Assembly (NCBI RefSeq): GCF_000024425.1
Contig: NC_013946.1
Location: 2,914,001-2,978,000 of the forward strand
DNA: 64,000 nt
Direction: 5' to 3'
Origin: Meiothermus ruber DSM 1279
Lineage (GTDB): Bacteria; Deinococcota; Deinococci; Deinococcales; Thermaceae
Position 1 is the first letter of the stretch. Every line of letters begins with the position of its first letter. The notes under the pieces are model-generated. The model was not told the origin of the DNA. It was given only the letters and a program-made list of their open reading frames with translations, and ran no database searches. Of this stretch, positions 261 through 63,128 are shown one piece after another. The position numbers were made by a program, and so were the translations under genes.

Positions 261-1595
261 CTAGCCTTCGCGGTCTTGCTGGGAGGCCAGCCGCCGGTGA
301 ATCTGGCGGGTAAGCCACCAGACCGCGGCAATCACCCCAGGGATGGACAGCCCCGCCGCCAGCTCAGGGGAAAAGGGCAGGCCGGCCTCCTTTCCAGCTT
401 TGAAGAGGTAGTACAGCAAGCCCACCACATAGTAGGAGATGGCCGCAATCGAGAGGCCCTCCACGGTGCGCTGGAGCTGGTACTGCATCTCCTGGCCGCG
501 CTTGAGTTTGTGCAACAGCTCCTGGTTCTGGGTCTCGAGGGCAATATCCACGCGGGTGCGCAGCAAGGCCCCGGCCCGCTCGATGCGCTGGGAGAGGGCG
601 GCCAGGCGCTGGGCAGTGGACTCCACCGTGGCCATGGCCGGGCTGAAGCGGCGCTGCAAGAACTCGCCGATGGTCTGGATGCCGGGGATGGGGGTCTCGC
701 GCAGCTCGGCCAGGCGGGCCCTGACCAGGGCGTGGTAGGCCGCGCTGGCGCTAAAGCGGTAGCCATGCTCGGCCATGGCGTGCTCCACCCGGGCCGCCAG
801 GGCCTCGAGCTCGTCCAGTAAACCCGCGTCGGCCTGGTTGGTGTCGCGGATGCGGGCTGTCATCCGGGCCAGGGCCCGCTCCGACTCCAGCAACATGGGA
901 CGCAAAGCCCGGGCCAGCGGATAACCTAGCAGCGCCATCATGCGGTAAGCCTCCATCTCCAGAAGCCGGGCTGCAATGCGGCCCGCCCGGGTCTCGCTGG
1001 TGCCCGGTGGGGCCACCACCACCATATGCTCAAAACCATCCGGCCGCAGAAGGAAATCGGTCACGGCACAGCTATGGCTATTCCGGCCCATCATCGAGGC
1101 CACCACGCTGTGCACACCCAGCCAGGGGCAGGCCAGGGCCAGGGCCTCCTCCACCGCCCCGTGCAGCATGATCAGCTTGACCGCCGAGAGGGTGCGGCCA
1201 GGAATGCTGCGCAGCCAGCCTGCATCCACAATCAGGTGGCCCAGCAGATCGGCCTCGGGGCTGGCCTCGAGCGCAGGCAAGGGCTGGATCAGGGTATAGG
1301 TGCTGAACTCGGTGTGCCGCTCCCAGCGCAGCGAGCCCCCTGGCAGCCGCAGGCGCAGGTAGATGCCCGCAAGCTGGTCAAGCTCGAGCTCCCCCAACCC
1401 CGAAAGCCGGCGCAGGTGCTCGAGCTCCTCCTCGCGCGAAACCCCCTCGTGCCGCACCGCCACCTGCACCACCAGGGCCGGTAGGCGGATCTGGGGGATG
1501 GGCCGGGCGTGCAGTTCGTTGTGAAGCTCGTGGCGCAGAGGGTCGTCGGGCGGCAGCAGGCCCGCCTCACGCACCATCACCTCATCCTGCCCCAT
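261..1595 (-). CDS. DUF3422 family membrane-anchored protein
   Basis: A 444-residue protein. Its N-terminus carries the family hallmark DPLRHELHNELHARP, and the C-terminus has two hydrophobic segments (around ISYYVVGLLYYLF and LAAGLSIPGVIAAVWW) followed by a basic tail, fitting a protein anchored in the cytoplasmic membrane by a C-terminal hairpin. The middle is helical and charged. I chose ATG 1595 because GGAGGGGG lies just upstream and the family motif follows closely; an upstream extension would be low-complexity. Its start overlaps the 3' end of the small ORF 1582-1734, which suggests translational coupling. The biochemical role of DUF3422 is unknown. Confidence 0.8.
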   Translation of the reverse strand: MGQDEVMVREAGLLPPDDPLRHELHNELHARPIPQIRLPALVVQVAVRHEGVSREEELEHLRRLSGLGELELDQLAGIYLRLRLPGGSLRWERHTEFSTYTLIQPLPALEASPEADLLGHLIVDAGWLRSIPGRTLSAVKLIMLHGAVEEALALACPWLGVHSVVASMMGRNSHSCAVTDFLLRPDGFEHMVVVAPPGTSETRAGRIAARLLEMEAYRMMALLGYPLARALRPMLLESERALARMTARIRDTNQADAGLLDELEALAARVEHAMAEHGYRFSASAAYHALVRARLAELRETPIPGIQTIGEFLQRRFSPAMATVESTAQRLAALSQRIERAGALLRTRVDIALETQNQELLHKLKRGQEMQYQLQRTVEGLSIAAISYYVVGLLYYLFKAGKEAGLPFSPELAAGLSIPGVIAAVWWLTRQIHRRLASQQDREG

Positions 1596-1734
1596 ACAAA
1601 ACCCCCTCCATTGGCGGGGCGCGGCGGTGGGGGGCCTGGCGCGCCTGCACCTCAAAAAGCCTGGCCTGTACGGCAATCCACAGCCGGCTGGCTGCGGCGG
1701 TCTGGATCGCTATCGCTTGGAGGGTGCTGGCCAT
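1582..1734 (-). CDS. Small ORF (50 aa) overlapping the DUF3422 start
   Basis: ATG at 1734 is preceded by AAAGGAGACAC, a strong ribosome binding site, and the frame ends at TGA 1584-1582, 14 bp inside the DUF3422 gene. The peptide begins MASTLQAIAIQTAAASRLW and is an amphipathic Ala/Gln-rich helix in its first 33 residues, then Pro/Arg-rich. The promoter, ribosome site and stop/start overlap support real translation, either as a coupled leader or as a small partner of the DUF3422 protein. I do not recognise a family. Confidence 0.55.
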   Translation of the reverse strand: MASTLQAIAIQTAAASRLWIAVQARLFEVQARQAPHRRAPPMEGVLYGAG

Positions 1735-54842: not shown

Positions 54843-55262
54843 ATGGACACCCCCCTTCCGGTCTACATCATCGGGCTGCGCGGCCTGCTTAACCTGATTG
54901 TGCTGCTCTTAATCGGGGTTTCGTTTTTGTGGAACCTACCGCTGCTGGTGCGCGAGCCCCATGCCCGGCAGTTGCGCTTTTTTAAGTTTGTGGCGGGCTT
55001 TGCGGTGGCGGCGGTGGTGGTCGAGCTTTTGGTACGCACGCTGTTTATGGGCGGCGTGAGCTGGCTGCACGCCGTCTACGGCCTGCTGGCTGCCAGCATT
55101 CTGTGGTTTGTAAGCGGCCTCGAGCCCGGGGGCTGGTTCCGCAAAAGCCTGGAAAAGCCCCCCGAGCAGGTAGGGCCGTACTTCTTCTGGGCCAGCCTGG
55201 TCTGCTTGCTGCTGTGGTGGCGCTTTATCGAGACCGGGATCGCTCGGGTTCCAACCCAGTAG
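54843..55262 (+). CDS. Small four-helix membrane protein
   Basis: A 139-residue protein with about four hydrophobic segments (GLRGLLNLIVLLLIGVSFLW, FFKFVAGFAVAAVVVELLV, AVYGLLAASILWFVSG, YFFWASLVCLLLWWRFIE). I recognise no family. It follows the amidase by 12 bp; TAAACT (54828-54833) lies 9 bases before ATG 54843, so it may also have its own leaderless message. It overlaps the convergent LpxB-related gene by 38 bp. Confidence 0.6.
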   Translation: MDTPLPVYIIGLRGLLNLIVLLLIGVSFLWNLPLLVREPHARQLRFFKFVAGFAVAAVVVELLVRTLFMGGVSWLHAVYGLLAASILWFVSGLEPGGWFRKSLEKPPEQVGPYFFWASLVCLLLWWRFIETGIARVPTQ

Positions 55263-56403
55263 CCTGCAGGTGCTGGTGCAGGTGCTGGTGCAGATCCAGG
55301 GCAATCCGCGCGGCGGCGCCGGGCTCGCCCATGGCGGCTTTCCCGGCTGCTCGAGCCCGCTCCAGCAGGGTTTCGGAGGAAAGGAAGGCCCGCACACCCC
55401 GCACTACGGCCTCGGGGCTGGGCTCGGTGAGCATTAAGGCGTCCCCCAGCAAGCGTTTTTGCGTCTGGGCGAACCCAGGGGTGTACTGCGGCCCCGGCGT
55501 TGGGAAGCCCACCAGCGGCACCCCGTAGCCCGCAGCCTGCTCAGCCGCCGTTCCGCTGGTGGAGAGGGCCAGCCTCGAGCCCCGCAAGGCCGCACCGAAG
55601 GCCCGCTGCGCCAGGTACACCACAGTTCCATCGGGGTGGCTGAGCCGGTGGGTGACGCCCTCGCTCCGACCGGTGGCCTCGAGCCGGTAGTCTTTCAGCT
55701 CCAGCCTGTCCAGGGGCAGGCCCGCCCAGGCCACCACGGGCGTTAGGGCGGTATCGCGCAGCCGGCGGCAGGCCTCGAGCATGACCGGCAGGCTCCAGTA
55801 GGCGTCCTGGCGCGAGCCCGGCAGCAGCAGCAGATACGGTGGGGGAAGCTCGAGCGACCCCTCGTCCAGGGCATCCAGCATGGGGTTGCCCAGGTAGCAG
55901 GCCTGGGGAAGGCCTCGAGCCCGCAGCCAGGCCGCCCCTTCCGGCTCGCGGGGATACACCCTGACCGCCTGGCGCATCAGCAGGCGCTCGGTCACGCTGT
56001 AGGGGCGCCCCCCCACCCGCAGCGAGGAGCGGCACTGCATCAAAAACAGCGGGCGGCCCCCAAACACCACCCCCACCCCCAGGGCGTACACATCCCCCAC
56101 CGCCAGCGTAGCCTGGGCCCCCCGGGCCGCCGCCTGCACCGCCTGGTACTGGGCCCGGCTCATGGAAAACCAGCCAGCCCGGAGATCGGCCCAGAGCGCC
56201 GCCGCACCTTGCAGGGCAAACCCCCCCGAGGGCAGCTCCCGACAGGGCCCCAGCGTGGGGATACCGGCCCGCCGGTAGGCCTGGCCCTGGCCCACCAGCG
56301 GCACCGCCTGCAGCGCGTAGCCCAGCGCCTGCAAGGCCCCGCCCAGGGTAGCTCCGATGATGTCCTCGCCGTGCCCGTTGGATATCAGCAGTATCTGTTT
56401 CAT
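55225..56403 (-). CDS. LpxB-related glycosyltransferase (lipid-A-disaccharide synthase-related)
   Basis: A 392-residue GT-B fold protein starting MKQILLISNGHGEDIIGATLG, with GNPMLD, LLLPGSRQDAYWSLPVMLEA and SGTAAEQAAGYGVPLVGF, the UDP-sugar-binding pattern of LpxB relatives. It fits the family TIGR03492, found in organisms such as cyanobacteria and Thermaceae that do not make standard lipid A, so the true product is unclear. The C-terminus contains LHQHLHQHLQ, encoded by two tandem 12-bp repeats (55267-55290). Its start overlaps the trpD stop as ATGA. Confidence 0.8.
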   Translation of the reverse strand: MKQILLISNGHGEDIIGATLGGALQALGYALQAVPLVGQGQAYRRAGIPTLGPCRELPSGGFALQGAAALWADLRAGWFSMSRAQYQAVQAAARGAQATLAVGDVYALGVGVVFGGRPLFLMQCRSSLRVGGRPYSVTERLLMRQAVRVYPREPEGAAWLRARGLPQACYLGNPMLDALDEGSLELPPPYLLLLPGSRQDAYWSLPVMLEACRRLRDTALTPVVAWAGLPLDRLELKDYRLEATGRSEGVTHRLSHPDGTVVYLAQRAFGAALRGSRLALSTSGTAAEQAAGYGVPLVGFPTPGPQYTPGFAQTQKRLLGDALMLTEPSPEAVVRGVRAFLSSETLLERARAAGKAAMGEPGAAARIALDLHQHLHQHLQATGLEPERSRSR

Positions 56404-57425
56404 GCCTGGGTAAAGTGAACCAGGCGCTCGAGCACCGCCAGCCCGGCCCCTTCGTCCAGGAGTTGCTGGGCCAGCCGCACCCCCTCGGCCACCCCCTCCA
56501 CCCGGCCCGCCAGGTAAAAGGCCGCTCCCGCGTTCAGCGCCACCGCATCGCGCTTGGGCCCCCGCTGCTGGCCGCTTAGAATGGCCCGCGCCTCCGCCGC
56601 GTTCTCGGCGGCGGTTCCCCCGCCAATCGCCGCGTAGGGGGCAGGCTCCAGGCCCACCTCTTCAGGCTGGAGGCGGTAGGTGCGGATCTGGCCGTCCCTA
56701 AGCTCGGCCACCAGGTTGTCGCCCAGGGCCAGCTCGTCGATGGCCTCGAGGCCCTCCCCACGCGCCATCTGGCCGTGCACCACCAGCGCCCGGCTGCTGC
56801 CCAGGTCGCGCAACACCTGGGCAAATGGCTCCACCAGGGCCGGGCTGCTCACCCCCACCAGGTTCAGGCTGGCAAAGGCAGGGTTGGTGAGGGGGCCCAG
56901 CAGGTTGAAGACGGTGCGCACCCCCAGCTCGGCCCGCACCGGGGCCACATAGCGCATGGCCGGGTGGTGGTTGCGGGCGAACAAAAAGCCCAGGCCCACC
57001 GTCTCGATGGCCTCAGCCACCTTTTCAGCGGGGATGTCGATCCGGATACCCAGCGCCTCGATCAGGTCGAAGGAGCCCGACTTGGAAGAGGCCGCCCGGT
57101 TGCCGTGCTTGGCCACCGCCACCCCGCCCGCGGCCACCACAAAGCAGGTGGTGGTGGAGATGTTGAAGGCCTCCGGGGCCACCCCCCCGGTGCCCACGAT
57201 GTCCAGCAGGGGCTGGCGGCGGGTCTCCACCCGCACCGCGGCCTCGCGCATACCGGCTGCAAAACCAGCGATCTCCTCGGGGGTCTCGCCCCGGGTGCGC
57301 AGGGCCATCAGCACCCCGGCGGTCTGCACCGGGGTCAGATCGCCGGCCATAATCCGGCGCATCAGGGCATGGGCCTCAGCCCTGGATAAAGGCTCGGCCA
57401 GAAGGGCTTTCTTGAGTTCGTCCAC
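56400..57425 (-). CDS. trpD: Anthranilate phosphoribosyltransferase
   Basis: A 341-residue enzyme adding phosphoribose from PRPP to anthranilate, the second step of tryptophan synthesis. GTGG at the head of DIVGTGGVAPEAFNIST, the KHGNRAASSKSGSFD stretch and the HNAMRYVAPVR-like segment (HHPAMRYVAPVR) are the substrate-binding motifs. The start is GTG 57425, after GGGGAGGA. It lies 17 bp after a glycosyltransferase gene, not beside trpG, so the trp genes are split here by inserted genes. Confidence 0.95.
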   Translation of the reverse strand: MDELKKALLAEPLSRAEAHALMRRIMAGDLTPVQTAGVLMALRTRGETPEEIAGFAAGMREAAVRVETRRQPLLDIVGTGGVAPEAFNISTTTCFVVAAGGVAVAKHGNRAASSKSGSFDLIEALGIRIDIPAEKVAEAIETVGLGFLFARNHHPAMRYVAPVRAELGVRTVFNLLGPLTNPAFASLNLVGVSSPALVEPFAQVLRDLGSSRALVVHGQMARGEGLEAIDELALGDNLVAELRDGQIRTYRLQPEEVGLEPAPYAAIGGGTAAENAAEARAILSGQQRGPKRDAVALNAGAAFYLAGRVEGVAEGVRLAQQLLDEGAGLAVLERLVHFTQA

Positions 57426-57442
57426 GGTTCCTCCCCAAAAGT

Positions 57443-58297
57443 TTACACACTCGGCAGGCGCCAACCCCGCCAGAGGCCCCGCCCGAGGGCCCCCACCTTG
57501 TCGAAGCGGCCCCGCAGGCTGTACTCCAGCAGCCAGAACAGGCCATACCCGGCCACCGCCAGCAGGGGCCAGGGGGCGTGCTTGCGAAAGAGCCGGACGT
57601 TGTAGGCAGCAAAGTATTCGTCGGAGCGCAGGCTGCCCGACCAGGAACTGCCCCCTTTGTGCAGCACCCGCGCCCCCTCGGCCACCGCCAGCCGGAACCC
57701 CGCGCGGGTCAGGCGCAGGCCGTAGTCGCAGTCCTCGCCGTACATGAAAAACCCCTCGTCCAGCAGGCCCACCCGTTCCAGGGCGGCCCGGCGGATGAGC
57801 AGGCTGGCCCCGCTGATGTAGTTCAAACGCCCGGCCTGGCGCGGATGGGTTAGCAGGCGGATCAGGCCCCAGGGGAGCACCACCTGGCCCCCGCCCCAGG
57901 CCTGTACTTGCTGGGGGTTGTCCATCTCGTAGAGCACCGCGCCCACCGCCCCAATCCGGGTGTCCTGCTCGGCCCGCTCCACCATGGCGGCGAGCGCACC
58001 CGCCTCGGGCAGGGTGTCGGGGTTGAGCAGCCAGACGTAGTCGGCCCCCGCGGCCAGGGCCCGGCGGATGCCGGCGTTGTTACCCCCGGCAAAACCCAGG
58101 TTGCGCCCCAGCTCCACCAACTCGAGGTGCGGAAAGGCCGCGCGCAGCCGGGCCACCCCGTCGTTCTGGGAGGCGTTGTCCAGCACCAGCACCCGGTAGT
58201 TGGGGTAACGGAGCCCCTCCAGCGCCCGCAAACAGGCCAGGGTGTCAGGCCAGGCGTTGTAGTTGACGATCAGGATGTACACCAGGGGCGCGCTCAT
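57443..58297 (-). CDS. Family 2 glycosyltransferase A
   Basis: A 284-residue GT2 enzyme close to rhamnosyltransferase-type proteins. The GT-A fold begins YILIVNYNAWPDTLACLRAL, the metal-binding DxD-like motif appears in WLLNPDTLPE, and FFMYGEDCDYGLRL carries the catalytic-base ED. A C-terminal amphipathic or membrane-associated segment follows (LLAVAGYGLFWLLEY). ATG 58297 overlaps the stop of glycosyltransferase B (ATGA). Confidence 0.87.
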   Translation of the reverse strand: MSAPLVYILIVNYNAWPDTLACLRALEGLRYPNYRVLVLDNASQNDGVARLRAAFPHLELVELGRNLGFAGGNNAGIRRALAAGADYVWLLNPDTLPEAGALAAMVERAEQDTRIGAVGAVLYEMDNPQQVQAWGGGQVVLPWGLIRLLTHPRQAGRLNYISGASLLIRRAALERVGLLDEGFFMYGEDCDYGLRLTRAGFRLAVAEGARVLHKGGSSWSGSLRSDEYFAAYNVRLFRKHAPWPLLAVAGYGLFWLLEYSLRGRFDKVGALGRGLWRGWRLPSV

Positions 58298-59181
58298 GCC
58301 GTGGCCCCTTCCAGCAGCCCCTGGGTGTAGGCGGCCTCGAGCACAAAGCGGTAGCACGCAAAGGCCCCCGCCCCCCCCTCCCAGTCGCGCACCCGCAAGA
58401 GCCGCTCGGCCCTGGCCCAGGGGTAGGCCCAGCGCTTGTAAGCCCGCGCCAGGGGGTGTACGCCCGTCCAGAGGGCCACCAGGGGGTGCGGGTGCAGCCG
58501 GTAAAACTGCCAGGCCATCCGCCCCAGGCTCCGCGACTTGGCGACCATAACGTCCAGGCTGACCCGATCCTCGTGGGCCGCGCGGGCCCCCAGGGCCAGG
58601 CGGGGCCGCACCCCCTTGCGCCAGAGCCGCCAGCCCAGCTCGTGATCTTCCCAGCCATAGCCCCGCATGGGTGCAAAAGCCTCGGCCTGCTCGAGCGGCA
58701 AAGAAAGACTGGCGAACCAGAAGCCGCCCCAGCCCAGCAACGCCCCATCGGCCCGGCCCCGCACCCCCGACTCGGCCCTTGCACGCCAGAAGCGTATAAA
58801 AGAATCCTGTCCCAGCGATTCCGGTATATAGGTATAACTCACCCCCGCCGCTCGAGGATAGCGCTGGTGCAAATTAAGATGAGCCTGTAAAAAACCCGCC
58901 TCGGGCACCACATCGTCATCGTTGAACAGCACATACTGGCCTCGAGCCTGAAGCAGCCCTGCATTGCGTGCATAGGCCATCCCCGCGTTGGGTTGGCGCA
59001 AAACCCGCAGGCGGGGGTCACGGAACCCGGCCAGCACCTCCGGCGTCGCATCGCTCGAGCCGTCGTCCACCACGATCAGCTCGAGCGCAACCCCTTCCTG
59101 GGCTAAAAAAGCCTGCACCGTGCGGGCCAGCAGTTCGGCCCGGTTGTAGGTGGGAATCACGACGCTGAAGGTGGGTTCCAT
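58294..59181 (-). CDS. Family 2 glycosyltransferase B
   Basis: A 295-residue GT2 enzyme: FSVVIPTYNRAELLARTVQAF, the nucleotide-binding VVDDGSSDAT, the DxD motif in LFNDDDVVPE, and RGYGWEDHELGWRLWRKGV with the acidic catalytic pair. Its start lies inside the end of glycosyltransferase C (25-bp overlap), and its stop overlaps the start of A, so the three glycosyltransferases are tightly coupled. Confidence 0.88.
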   Translation of the reverse strand: MEPTFSVVIPTYNRAELLARTVQAFLAQEGVALELIVVDDGSSDATPEVLAGFRDPRLRVLRQPNAGMAYARNAGLLQARGQYVLFNDDDVVPEAGFLQAHLNLHQRYPRAAGVSYTYIPESLGQDSFIRFWRARAESGVRGRADGALLGWGGFWFASLSLPLEQAEAFAPMRGYGWEDHELGWRLWRKGVRPRLALGARAAHEDRVSLDVMVAKSRSLGRMAWQFYRLHPHPLVALWTGVHPLARAYKRWAYPWARAERLLRVRDWEGGAGAFACYRFVLEAAYTQGLLEGATA

Positions 59182-59975
59182 GCCTCCGAAGCCCCCCAGG
59201 CATACGCCAGCTCGTAGTCGCCCCGCGCCCCCAGCAGGCCCTTGAAGGAGGGGAGCAGGGCCAGCTTCAGGCTCACCAGCACCGGGTGCACCCCCAGGGC
59301 CCAGGCGATGCGGGGGTCGTGGTGTTTCTGCCAGACCCGCACGTGGGCCGCCCCCGCCTGCCGGGCTTTCTCGATGGCCTGGCCCTGGTAGTCGAAAGCC
59401 TCATGCACGGCCAGCGCCTCCCGCACGAACACCAGCCGCGCCCCAGCCCGCATCAGGCGGTAGCCCAGGTCGGGGTCTTCGCCGCCGTAGCCGCTGAAGG
59501 CGGGGTCGTAGCCGCCCACCTCCTCAAACAGGGCCCTGGGCAGCGAGGTGTTGTTGCCGGTGATGTTCCACCAGAAGGCCCGGGGGCCCTTCAGCTCCGC
59601 CGCCCCCGTACCCCGCAGCGCGGGGGGCAGCTCGAGCCGCCCCACCGCCACCGTGCGGGGCCGGGTGTGCGCTTTCTGATGGGCCTCGATCCAGCCCGGC
59701 TGGGGTATCACGTCGTCGTCGGAAAAAAGCAGGATATCGCCCCGGGCCATCCCGGCCCCCCGGTTGCGGGCGTTGGCCGCGCCGAGGCCCGGCGTGATCT
59801 CAAGAAAGTGGAACGCAAAGGGCGGTTTGTACTGCTGTAGGAATTCCAGGGTATCGTCGGTGCAGCCATCGGCCACCACGATCACCTCAAACGCGCCCGG
59901 TTGGTTTTCCAGAGCGCGCAGCTTCTTCGCCAGCACTTCGCGGCGGTTGTGGGTGGGTACAATTACCGAGATCAT
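59157..59975 (-). CDS. Family 2 glycosyltransferase C
   Basis: A 272-residue GT2 enzyme beginning MISVIVPTHNRREVLAKKL, with VVADGCTDDT, the DxD motif in LLFSDDDVIPQ and YGGEDPDLGYRLMRAGA. It resembles glycosyltransferase B in layout, so the two probably arose by duplication. Its ATG overlaps the stop of the VapC-type toxin gene (ATGA), which means the toxin-antitoxin pair and the glycosyltransferases can share one mRNA. Confidence 0.88.
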   Translation of the reverse strand: MISVIVPTHNRREVLAKKLRALENQPGAFEVIVVADGCTDDTLEFLQQYKPPFAFHFLEITPGLGAANARNRGAGMARGDILLFSDDDVIPQPGWIEAHQKAHTRPRTVAVGRLELPPALRGTGAAELKGPRAFWWNITGNNTSLPRALFEEVGGYDPAFSGYGGEDPDLGYRLMRAGARLVFVREALAVHEAFDYQGQAIEKARQAGAAHVRVWQKHHDPRIAWALGVHPVLVSLKLALLPSFKGLLGARGDYELAYAWGASEAWNPPSAS

Positions 59976-60364: not shown

Positions 60365-60582
60365 CACAGCCCTTCCCGTTCCTCGAACGGCCCCTGCGGG
60401 GGGCGCTCGAGGTCGCCCTCCCAGCTTCCCGCCAGGGCCAGGAAAGCCGCCGAGCGTCGCGGTACAACCTGCGACTCGATCATCTCGCGCAACAGCTCGG
60501 AGAGCTTCATACCCCGGGCCTTGGCCCTCTGCTCGAGGATGCGGTAGGTCGCTTCTTTTAGATAGGTCTGCACCTGCGGCAT
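60364..60582 (-). CDS. Ribbon-helix-helix-type antitoxin (VapB-like)
   Basis: A 72-residue protein with the RHH-like start MPQVQTYLKEATYRILEQRA and the helix GMKLSELLREMIESQVV, then a tail rich in Pro and acidic residues (ERPPQGPFEEREGL) expected to wrap the toxin. ATG 60582 directly follows the inverted repeat at 60583-60605, so the complex probably represses its own promoter. It forms a TGATG overlap with the toxin gene. Confidence 0.75.
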   Translation of the reverse strand: MPQVQTYLKEATYRILEQRAKARGMKLSELLREMIESQVVPRRSAAFLALAGSWEGDLERPPQGPFEEREGL

Positions 60583-60605
60583 GTAAATAGTGTATGTATA
60601 TTTAC
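60583..60605 (-). promoter_or_regulatory. Autoregulatory operator of the VapBC-type pair
   Basis: GTAAATA (60583-60589) and TATTTAC (60599-60605) are a perfect 7-bp inverted repeat around 9 bases, in the only strongly AT-rich stretch nearby. It touches the antitoxin start codon and lies in the 31-bp gap after trpG, so it is also where this pair could gain a promoter separate from trp. Confidence 0.6.
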
Positions 60606-60613
60606 TATACAAC

Positions 60614-61189
60614 TCAAGCCATCGCCAGGAAATTCGCCAGCATCTGCTTGCCCCCCTCGGTCAAAACCGATTCCGGGTGAAACTGCACCCCGTGGGTGGG
60701 GTAGCGGCGGTGGCGCAGCCCCATCACCGTGCGGCCCCCGGCCTCGTCGTACCAGGCGTTGGCCTCCAGTTCGTCGGGCAGGTCTTCCACCACCAACGAG
60801 TGGTAGCGGGTGGCCGTCAGGGGGGTGGGCAGGCCGGCAAACACCCCGCTGCCGTCGTGCAGGATGGGGCTGGTCTTGCCGTGCACAATCACCCGGTGCC
60901 GCCGCACCGCAGCCCCAAAGGCCTCGCCAATGCTCTGGTGGCCCAGGCAGACCCCCAGGATGGGGTATCGGGGCGCGTAGCGCTGGATGAGCGGCACCGA
61001 GAGGCCGGCCTCCTTGGGCGTGCAGGGGCCGGGGCTCACCACAATGCCGTCGGGGTCAAGGTCGGCCACATCCTGCAAGCTAAAGCGGTCGTTGCGCCAA
61101 ACGGTTACCTGGGCGCCCAGTTCGCCCAGGTACTGCACCAGGTTGTAGGTAAAGGAGTCGTAGTTGTCAATCATCAGAATTCGCTTCAC
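60614..61189 (-). CDS. trpG: Anthranilate synthase glutamine amidotransferase subunit
   Basis: A 191-residue class I glutamine amidotransferase supplying ammonia to TrpE (and perhaps to PabB, as PabA). The triad is Cys81 in GVCLGHQ, His171 and Glu173 in VQFHPES; it starts MKRILMIDNYDSFTYNLVQYL. GTG 61189 overlaps the stop of the chorismate mutase gene (GTGA). The toxin-antitoxin pair follows 31 bp downstream. Confidence 0.93.
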   Translation of the reverse strand: MKRILMIDNYDSFTYNLVQYLGELGAQVTVWRNDRFSLQDVADLDPDGIVVSPGPCTPKEAGLSVPLIQRYAPRYPILGVCLGHQSIGEAFGAAVRRHRVIVHGKTSPILHDGSGVFAGLPTPLTATRYHSLVVEDLPDELEANAWYDEAGGRTVMGLRHRRYPTHGVQFHPESVLTEGGKQMLANFLAMA

Positions 61190-61458
61190 AGTCCTGCCTC
61201 CCGCTTTTCCATGGCCGCAAACTCCCCCAGGATGGCGCGGTAGATGCGCTCGGCCACATTGGGCGATAAGCCCTGGTGCTCGGCCATATAGCGCACGTGC
61301 TGGATGATCTGTTCCTGCCGGTCTTTTGACTCAAGAGGCACCGGGCTTTGCCCTAGCCGGGCCGCTTCTTTAGCCAGCCGCGCCCGCTGGGCCAGCAGTA
61401 CCACAATCCGGGCGTCAATGGCGTTAATTTGCAGGCGAATGTCCTCGAGGCTTCCCAT
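61186..61458 (-). CDS. Chorismate mutase, AroQ class
   Basis: A 90-residue all-helical enzyme converting chorismate to prephenate for Phe/Tyr. EDIRLQINAIDARIVVLLAQRARLA is the first AroQ helix with its substrate Arg, followed by SKDRQEQIIQHV and AERIYRAILGEFAAME. GGAGGGG precedes ATG 61458. Its place between trpE and trpG puts the competing chorismate branch in the same attenuated operon. Confidence 0.88.
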   Translation of the reverse strand: MGSLEDIRLQINAIDARIVVLLAQRARLAKEAARLGQSPVPLESKDRQEQIIQHVRYMAEHQGLSPNVAERIYRAILGEFAAMEKREAGL

Positions 61459-61514: not shown

Positions 61515-62930
61515 TCACAACCCCTCCTCGGCCAGCCGCACCGCCTTGACCATGGCCTGGGCCTTGTTCAAGCACTCCTGGTACTCGGCCATCGGATTGG
61601 AGTCGTAGACCACCCCCGCCCCCGCCTGGATGTGCATCTGCCCACCAGCCACCACGATGGTTCGCAGGGTCAGGGCCATGTCCATGTGCCCGTCGTAGGC
61701 CACATAGCCAAAAGCCCCCCCGTACGCGCCCCGACGGGCGGGCTCGAGCTCCTCGATAATCTCCATGGCCCGGATCTTGGGGGCCCCCGAGACGGTGCCC
61801 ATCGGCAAGACCGCGGCCAGGGCGTCGAGCGGGGTTTTGTCCTCGCAGAGCTCGCCCTCCACGGTCGAGACGATGTGCATCACGTGCGAGTAGTTCTCCA
61901 CCTTCATAAGTTCGCGGGGCCGCACGCTGCCATAGCGGCAGACCCGGCCCAGGTCGTTGCGCGAAAGGTCCACCAGCATCACGTGCTCGGCCCGCTCCTT
62001 TTCGTCGGACAGCAGCTCTTCGGCCAGGGCCTGGTCTTCAGCAGCATCCCGGCCCCGCCGGCGGGTTCCGGCGATGGGGCGGGTCACCACCCGCTGCCCA
62101 TCGGAGCGCAGCAGGCTCTCGGGGCTGCTCGAGACCAGGGTCACCTCGCCCAGTTCCAGGTAGCCCATGTAGGGGCTGGGGTTCACCGAGCGCAGGGCGC
62201 GGTAGACAGCAAAGGGGTGCACCTGCAGGGGGGCCGAGATGCGCAGCGAGGGCACCACCTGGAAGATGTCGCCGGCCCGGATGTACTCGAGCGCTTTCTC
62301 CACCATCTGCTCGTACTCAGCCTGGGTAACGTTCTGGCTGAACTCCACCCGCCGCCCGGCCCGTTCGCCCGGCACCCCCGGCAGCGGCCCGCTGAGCTTC
62401 TTCTCGGCCCAGGCGATGCGCTCCAGGGCCTGGGCCCGCTCGTCCTCCAGGGCCGGGGCCACGATGTGGAGCTGCTGCTTGAACTGGTCAAATACAATCA
62501 GGACTTCCGGCTCGATAAACAGCAGGTCGGGAATGCCCAGCAGGTCGGGCTTCTGGTTGGGCAGGCGCTCGTAGTAGCGGATGAGGTCGTAGGCCGCGTA
62601 GCCCACCGCACCGCCCCAGAACAGGGGCAGGTCGGGGTCGGGCTGGATGGGCCGGTGGATGGCCTGGTAGAGGGTGCGCAGGGGATCCTGGGTCGCCAGC
62701 GGCCGGCCATTCAGGGTAAAAACCCCCTCCTTCAGCCGCCAGATGTGGCGGGCCCCCACCCCCACAAAGCTCCAGCGGGCCCAGGCCTTGCCCCCCTCCA
62801 CCGACTCCAGCAAAAAGCTGGGACTGGCCTTCTCCGAGAGCTTCAGGTAGGCCGTGACGGGGGTCTCGAGGTCGGCCAGCAGGGTTTTCTTGACCGGGAT
62901 GGTGGGCTTGGTTAGGTGTGCAATGGGCAT
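61515..62930 (-). CDS. trpE: Anthranilate synthase component I
   Basis: A 471-residue chorismate-using enzyme, the first committed step to tryptophan. The N-terminal domain carries LLES at residues 40-43, the tryptophan feedback-inhibition motif. The catalytic domain shows PIAGTRRRG, the LSDEKERAEHVMLVDLSRNDLGRV chorismate/Mg site, and AGAGVVYDSNPMAEYQE. AGGAGAGC precedes ATG 62930. It is preceded by a Trp-rich leader peptide and an attenuator, and followed by the AroQ gene after 56 bp. Confidence 0.95.
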   Translation of the reverse strand: MPIAHLTKPTIPVKKTLLADLETPVTAYLKLSEKASPSFLLESVEGGKAWARWSFVGVGARHIWRLKEGVFTLNGRPLATQDPLRTLYQAIHRPIQPDPDLPLFWGGAVGYAAYDLIRYYERLPNQKPDLLGIPDLLFIEPEVLIVFDQFKQQLHIVAPALEDERAQALERIAWAEKKLSGPLPGVPGERAGRRVEFSQNVTQAEYEQMVEKALEYIRAGDIFQVVPSLRISAPLQVHPFAVYRALRSVNPSPYMGYLELGEVTLVSSSPESLLRSDGQRVVTRPIAGTRRRGRDAAEDQALAEELLSDEKERAEHVMLVDLSRNDLGRVCRYGSVRPRELMKVENYSHVMHIVSTVEGELCEDKTPLDALAAVLPMGTVSGAPKIRAMEIIEELEPARRGAYGGAFGYVAYDGHMDMALTLRTIVVAGGQMHIQAGAGVVYDSNPMAEYQECLNKAQAMVKAVRLAEEGL

Positions 62931-62949: not shown

Positions 62950-62979
62950 AAAAAATCCCCCTGAGGAAAGCCCCAGGGG
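62950..62979 (-). terminator. trp attenuator hairpin
   Basis: On the minus strand CCCCTG (62979-62974) and CAGGGG (62963-62958) pair around a 10-base interval that can add further GG/CC pairs, followed by ATTTTTTTATTG, a perfect T tract. It lies between the leader peptide stop (63003) and the trpE ribosome site. An upstream stem GGTAGC/GTTACC (around GGTC) overlaps the first arm and could act as antiterminator. Confidence 0.85.
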
Positions 62980-63002
62980 TAACGACCGCTACCGTCCCAG
63001 GG

Positions 63003-63047
63003 CTATCCGGGCCACCACCAACCCTTGACGAGCGCGATCGGTACCAT
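63003..63047 (-). CDS. trpL: trp operon leader peptide with three tandem Trp codons
   Basis: ATG 63047, preceded by GGAGGC at 63056-63051, encodes MVPIALVKGWWWPG and stops at TAG 63005-63003. Three consecutive TGG codons in 14, just before a T-tract hairpin and trpE, are the hallmark of attenuation by ribosome stalling when charged tRNA-Trp is scarce. The peptide is too short for routine gene callers. Confidence 0.9.
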   Translation of the reverse strand: MVPIALVKGWWWPG

Positions 63048-63128
63048 CTGGCCTCCAGTCTGCGCTATGGGCGGCCAGAATGCAAGTGGTTCTGTACGCC
63101 GGCCCCACAAAACGATAGGCTAAGGCCG

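Follow-up and report, generated by a model that had tools for sequence, protein, structure and literature searches.

A putative ribosome-mediated tryptophan attenuator before trpE in Meiothermus ruber, with counterparts across the Thermaceae

The trpE leader of Meiothermus ruber is very probably a ribosome-mediated transcription attenuator of the trp type, a putative assignment that we make from sequence comparison. Its parts, their order, three alternative pairings of the leader RNA and the linkage of the whole to trpE are established by sequence, folding and covariation. The leader is read from the minus strand of the window, the whole 64,000-nucleotide stretch of DNA analysed here, which belongs to a genome of a single contig (3,097,457 bases). 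As the first-pass annotation of this DNA had described, an open reading frame with three TGG codons, a GGAGG motif and a hairpin followed by seven Ts all stand in this strand before trpE (Table 1). The leader open reading frame carries consecutive regulatory codons, a terminator precedes the first structural gene, an antiterminator shares a strand with that terminator, a protector pairing (1:2) includes the Trp codons, and the downstream genes (trpE, then trpG and trpD) make the amino acid that would be sensed. The nearest gene upstream of the leader is in divergent orientation, and the terminator can therefore act only on trpE transcripts.

Table 1. Features of the trpE leader and of the genes behind it, in window positions.
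Feature	Position	Strand	Remarks
Promoter element TTGCAT	63085-63080	-	Predicted; followed by a 17-nt spacer
-10 promoter element CAGACT	63062-63057	-	Predicted; spacing kept in Meiothermus, Calidithermus and others
Probable discriminator GGAGGCCAG	63056-63048	-	Contains GGAGG (63056-63052)
Predicted transcript start	~63050-63047	-	From promoter spacing
Leader open reading frame MVPIALVKGWWWPG, then stop	63047-63003	-	14 codons, ATG to TAG; stop TAG at 63005-63003
Three tandem TGG codons of the leader	63020-63012	-	Codons 10-12; Trp codons kept across genera
Segment 1, leader codons pairing with segment 2 (protector 1:2)	63012..63040	-	Folding; cognate-pair test
Segment 2	62983..63005	-	Folding; covariation
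AGCCCTGGG, portion of segment 2	63004-62996	-	Antiterminator partner of segment 3
Antiterminator inner stem GGTAGC/GTTACC	62993-62988 / 62983-62978	-	Small hairpin
Segment 3, CCCCTGGGGCT	62969..62979	-	Common to antiterminator 2:3 and terminator 3:4; folding, covariation
Terminator hairpin CCCCTGGGG-CTTT-CCTCAGGGG (segments 3 and 4)	62979-62958	-	Sequence, folding, covariation
Terminator arms CCCCTGGGGC and CCTCAGGGG	62979-62970 and 62966-62958	-	
Seven Ts of the intrinsic terminator	62955-62949	-	Whole terminator 62979-62949
AAAGGAGAGCAG		-	After the seven Ts, directly before the trpE ATG
trpE, anthranilate synthase component I	61515..62930	-	Pfam Anth_synt_I_N and Chorismate_bind; ATG at 62930
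aroQ-type chorismate mutase	61186..61458	-	Pfam CM_2, 7e-16
trpG	60614..61189	-	Pfam GATase; 4-nt overlap with aroQ
trpD	56400..57419	-	Pfam; adjoins trpG in Thermus

Could this be a chance open reading frame that happens to stand beside an ordinary terminator and has no part in regulation? TGGTGGTGG is indeed frequent in this GC-rich genome, where it occurs at 571 sites, and the evidence therefore lies in the combination of parts and in their conservation. When both strands of the window were scanned for a short open reading frame that has tandem TGG codons close to its stop and is followed, no more than 75 nucleotides further on, by a GC hairpin and a run of Ts, this site was the sole match, and the same scan of 60 Markov-shuffled windows gave zero matches. 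The arrangement moreover accompanies trpE in many genera and shows covariation, and the probability of a chance origin is negligible.

We sampled 111 genomes of the order, from families including the Thermaceae and those designated f2 to f5 (the Deinococcaceae were not among them), and found TrpE in 48 of 50 genomes of the Thermaceae and, for the remaining families, in most of those sampled. Upstream of trpE in the Thermaceae and in the sister family f4 there is a leader peptide that ends in WW(W)PG-stop or something close to it, with a terminator behind it; among the carriers are M. taiwanensis, M. hypogaeus, M. luteus, M. granaticius, M. rufus, Calidithermus and many species of Thermus. Wherever trpE was detected in the Thermaceae and f4, Trp codons, a terminator and an antiterminator lie ahead of it, and the Trp codons are tandem (WW or WWW, the latter in M. 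ruber) in all genomes except one, a Thermus (G026, leader L033) whose leader MNLTSLRPWPG has a single Trp codon and keeps the hairpins. Comparison of the Trp codons among relatives had been set beforehand as a refuting test of the first-pass annotation, and the codons proved to be conserved. Of the 64 genomes in these two families, 61 gave one strong match each (E at most 4.2e-10), directly before trpE, to a covariance model built from 27 leaders; these are 49 of the 50 Thermaceae and 12 of the 14 f4 members. The three genomes with no match also had no detectable trpE. In M. ruber the best score was 82 bits and the next 23. Second matches to the model, in genomes resembling T. scotoductus at 1e-5 and in G011, G046 and G107, were inspected and judged to be chance or unrelated. 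Two Thermus leaders (L046 and L047, from G028 and G029) stand far upstream of TrpE matches that begin 66-101 residues in; they are at the expected distance from the true trpE start, which points to frameshifts either in trpE itself or in the assemblies.

Beyond these two families, f2 and f3 have Trp leaders of a more distant kind before trpE, and no leader was seen in the 27 trpE upstream regions read from family f5, probably the Trueperaceae, so that the leader is not universal in the phylum sample. In one genome of family f2 a further open reading frame with WWW (L204, G052:C566, ~1485-1604, minus strand; MSNAVQYWWWPRLRW...), with a terminator-like hairpin and T run, stands just before a gene that reads as tryptophanyl-tRNA synthetase, and a Trp leader may control trpS as well in that genome. 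A GC-rich terminator-like hairpin was also seen in a family f5 genome, just before a gene that reads as aspartyl-tRNA synthetase (L208, G107:C6:31301-31379).

RNA folding predicts the mutually exclusive hairpins that had been proposed as a check on the attenuator, and they covary. The whole leader folds to 1:2 plus the terminator 3:4 at -47.0 kcal/mol (4 of 200 shuffles were equally good), and an RNA that starts at the Trp codons, mimicking a segment 1 that a stalled ribosome holds, folds to the antiterminator 2:3 over the GGUAGC/GUUACC stem. The terminator has a folding energy of -17.5 kcal/mol (z -2.9). Because segment 2 begins within the leader stop codon, it would be covered by a ribosome that has reached the stop; one standing at the first Trp codon should, given a ribosome footprint of the usual size, leave it free, and the geometry of the leader, as modelled, is that of classical attenuation.

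All three pairings (1:2, 2:3 and 3:4) are supported by covariation across the Thermaceae and family f4. In the antiterminator 97.2% of cells pair, with two-sided changes in four of the eight pairs, and its score of 0.302 compares with at most 0.159 in slid controls and was reached by none of 500 shuffles. In the terminator, counted on curated segments, 94.7% of cells are paired and five pairs show two-sided changes, a result that none of 2000 shuffles reached; one segment 4 letter of leader L057 was entered wrongly in this count, at an end pair that does not pair with either letter. Cognate 1:2 pairs were more stable than swapped ones, with 0 of 20000 permutations doing as well overall and, within genera, 19 (Meiothermus) and 106 (Thermus) of 20,000, though the controls for both the covariation and the swap test do not fully remove relatedness. 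M. granaticius carries a triple change, G to A in segment 3 and C to T in its partners in both segment 2 and segment 4, as expected if segment 3 pairs with each partner in turn. In some Meiothermus the antiterminator is also followed by a short T run. With these parts conserved before trpE in the Thermaceae and f4 and with hairpins that covary, the reading of the locus as a Trp attenuator is supported.

From this arrangement we infer a leaderless start, ribosome stalling and tryptophan-dependent read-through, in the following scheme. Transcription would begin no more than a few bases from the leader ATG, and a ribosome would load on the probably leaderless AUG and translate behind the RNA polymerase. 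When charged tRNA-Trp is scarce, the ribosome would stall at UGG codons 10-12 and disrupt 1:2; segment 2, thus freed, would pair with segment 3, and the polymerase would enter trpE-aroQ-trpG and, further downstream, trpD. When charged tRNA-Trp is ample, the ribosome would reach the UAG and cover segment 2, so that 3:4 would form and terminate transcription. A leader that is not translated would adopt 1:2 and 3:4 and would terminate as well.

Most leaders of Thermus and Meiothermus share, with striking constancy, the peptide end Trp-Trp-Pro-Gly-stop, as they would if the nascent peptide did the sensing in the manner of TnaC, with WWWPG binding tryptophan or arresting in the ribosome tunnel rather than the ribosome stalling at hungry codons. 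We considered the constant Pro-Gly as the sign of an arrest peptide and rejected it on account of variants that alter the peptide and yet keep segment 2: the leaders ending WWWP-stop (L008), PRKP-stop (g2), PR-stop (L018) and RPG-stop (G049) differ in peptide and retain the RNA, which places the constraint on the RNA and the codons and not on a peptide that arrests the ribosome. Elsewhere the peptide is free except for the 1:2 pairing, and induction by tryptophan would make no sense for a biosynthetic operon; peptide sensing is therefore very unlikely here. Still less likely is that another tryptophan regulator acts and that the leader open reading frame is incidental. T-box, TRAP and TrpR are the remaining well-known trp controls, but neither TRAP (PF02081) nor TrpR (PF01371) had a match in the M. 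ruber genome, control genomes being positive, and in Rfam 15 neither a T-box nor a trp leader family matched this locus at E values up to 5, and none did so at gathering scores in the relatives. The conserved Trp codons and alternative hairpins likewise speak against an incidental leader.

Translation of the leader probably begins at the first bases of the transcript. Among 55 non-redundant leaders, 53 have a YANNNT hexamer 5-10 nt ahead of the leader start, and a Shine-Dalgarno match of at least five nucleotides occurs at 5 of the 55 leader starts versus 40 of the 55 trpE starts, the latter count being somewhat generous as the best of several possible starts was taken; the leaderless reading draws on this hexamer near the start together with the few Shine-Dalgarno matches. 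The -10 hexamer lies 6-9 nt from the leader start in most genera. The Calidithermus promoter reads TTGCAC-17-TACACT, and in Thermus TATCCT-6 nt-ATG stands upstream of the leader, a six-nucleotide spacing at which the transcript is predicted to start with the A of the ATG and which leaves no room for a ribosome site. In Meiothermus, where the ATG is nine nucleotides from the -10 hexamer, the 5' untranslated stretch should be 0-3 bases long. TA-like signals roughly 10 bp ahead of the start have been taken to mark leaderless genes, and some 40% of Deinococcus-Thermus genes are predicted to be leaderless (PMC3160421).

The first-pass annotation had taken the GGAGG of M. ruber for a ribosome site, and it is conceivable that the leader open reading frame is translated from a leadered RNA with GGAGG as its Shine-Dalgarno site, attenuation being otherwise unchanged; purine-rich variants of the motif do occur in several Meiothermus species. 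We hold this to be unlikely in view of the short distance from the -10 hexamer in most genera, the tight spacing in Thermus, the rarity of Shine-Dalgarno matches at leader starts and the predicted abundance of leaderless genes in the phylum. The claim of a ribosome site is probably wrong: the GGAGG lies between the conserved -10 hexamer and the ATG and so is probably untranscribed, a promoter discriminator rather than a ribosome site.

How far the attenuator would reach depends on the genes behind it, which run in the order trpE, aroQ, trpG, vapBC, three glycosyltransferases, trpD and one gene more; some neighbours overlap, and the widest gap is about 56 nt. No terminator-like site was found at the junctions between genes from trpE as far as trpD, and in Thermus the order is trpE-trpG-trpD, which places trpD in the common core of the cluster. 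The extension of read-through beyond trpG that had been suggested stands in part: the glycosyltransferases and trpD plausibly depend on it, whereas vapBC is probably independent of the attenuator and under its own promoter, since it is missing in one relative and has a promoter-like sequence of its own. That sequence, TTGAGT-17-TACACT-6-ATG (60582-60615), is of the leaderless type and overlaps an inverted repeat, GTAAATA..TATTTAC, which is probably an operator. The vapBC pair is found in M. ruber and in one further genome (G005) and is missing in M. taiwanensis. The three glycosyltransferases between trpG and trpD (55225-59975) are of family 2; other Meiothermus have them in the same order as M. 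ruber, and related ones stand at the same place in Calidithermus and in one f4 genome, not in Thermus. The gene after trpD overlaps it by 4 nt and has no Pfam match.

The covariation, which goes beyond mere resemblance, shows the putative codon-stalling trp attenuator to be a stable, lineage-wide trait of the Thermaceae and neighbouring families. It is very probably a deeply conserved example of a known mechanism in a bacterial branch where trp attenuation is little documented, and a search of the literature outside subscription papers turned up no study, comparative or experimental, of trpE leaders from this phylum. A 1988 report of the T. thermophilus trpE sequence reportedly mentioned an attenuator-like structure. 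Since Rfam 15 fails to recognise the leader, it merits an RNA family of its own. If the leaderless start is right, the leader, of about 100 nt, would offer a natural system in a thermophile for studying how a ribosome that loads at the first base keeps up with the polymerase.

With E. coli trpL the M. ruber leader shares tandem Trp codons, the pairings 1:2, 2:3 and 3:4 and a terminator before trpE. The E. coli leader carries a Shine-Dalgarno site in its 5' untranslated region and is controlled by TrpR as well; in M. ruber, by contrast, TrpR was not detected, and the Rfam trp leader family was not matched. The view that ribosome-stalling attenuation is best known from Proteobacteria needs the rider that it is not confined there, since PMC4833913 cites experimental support for ribosome-mediated trp attenuation in Streptomyces venezuelae and Corynebacterium glutamicum, and for the aroA-tyrA operon of T. 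thermophilus a computed attenuator has been tabulated from the Merino database (PMC1173090). The actinobacterial systems, which we liken to ours by description, belong to another phylum than M. ruber. Sinorhizobium meliloti trpLE(G), with its products peTrpL and rnTrpL, is of another phylum too and differs in sequence, and a trans role is known in S. meliloti and none here. A speculative extension, to which we give little credence, would have the trp attenuator of the Thermaceae and their sister families ancestrally leaderless, ribosome loading being set at the very 5' end and without a Shine-Dalgarno site, and its terminated RNA or peptide, by further speculation, acting in trans after the manner of rnTrpL and peTrpL in Sinorhizobium. 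A 14-residue Trp leader peptide is common to both systems, and in S. meliloti, where trpE(G) is attenuated, the trpL RNA begins at its ATG and so is leaderless (PMC7298713), as is predicted for M. ruber.
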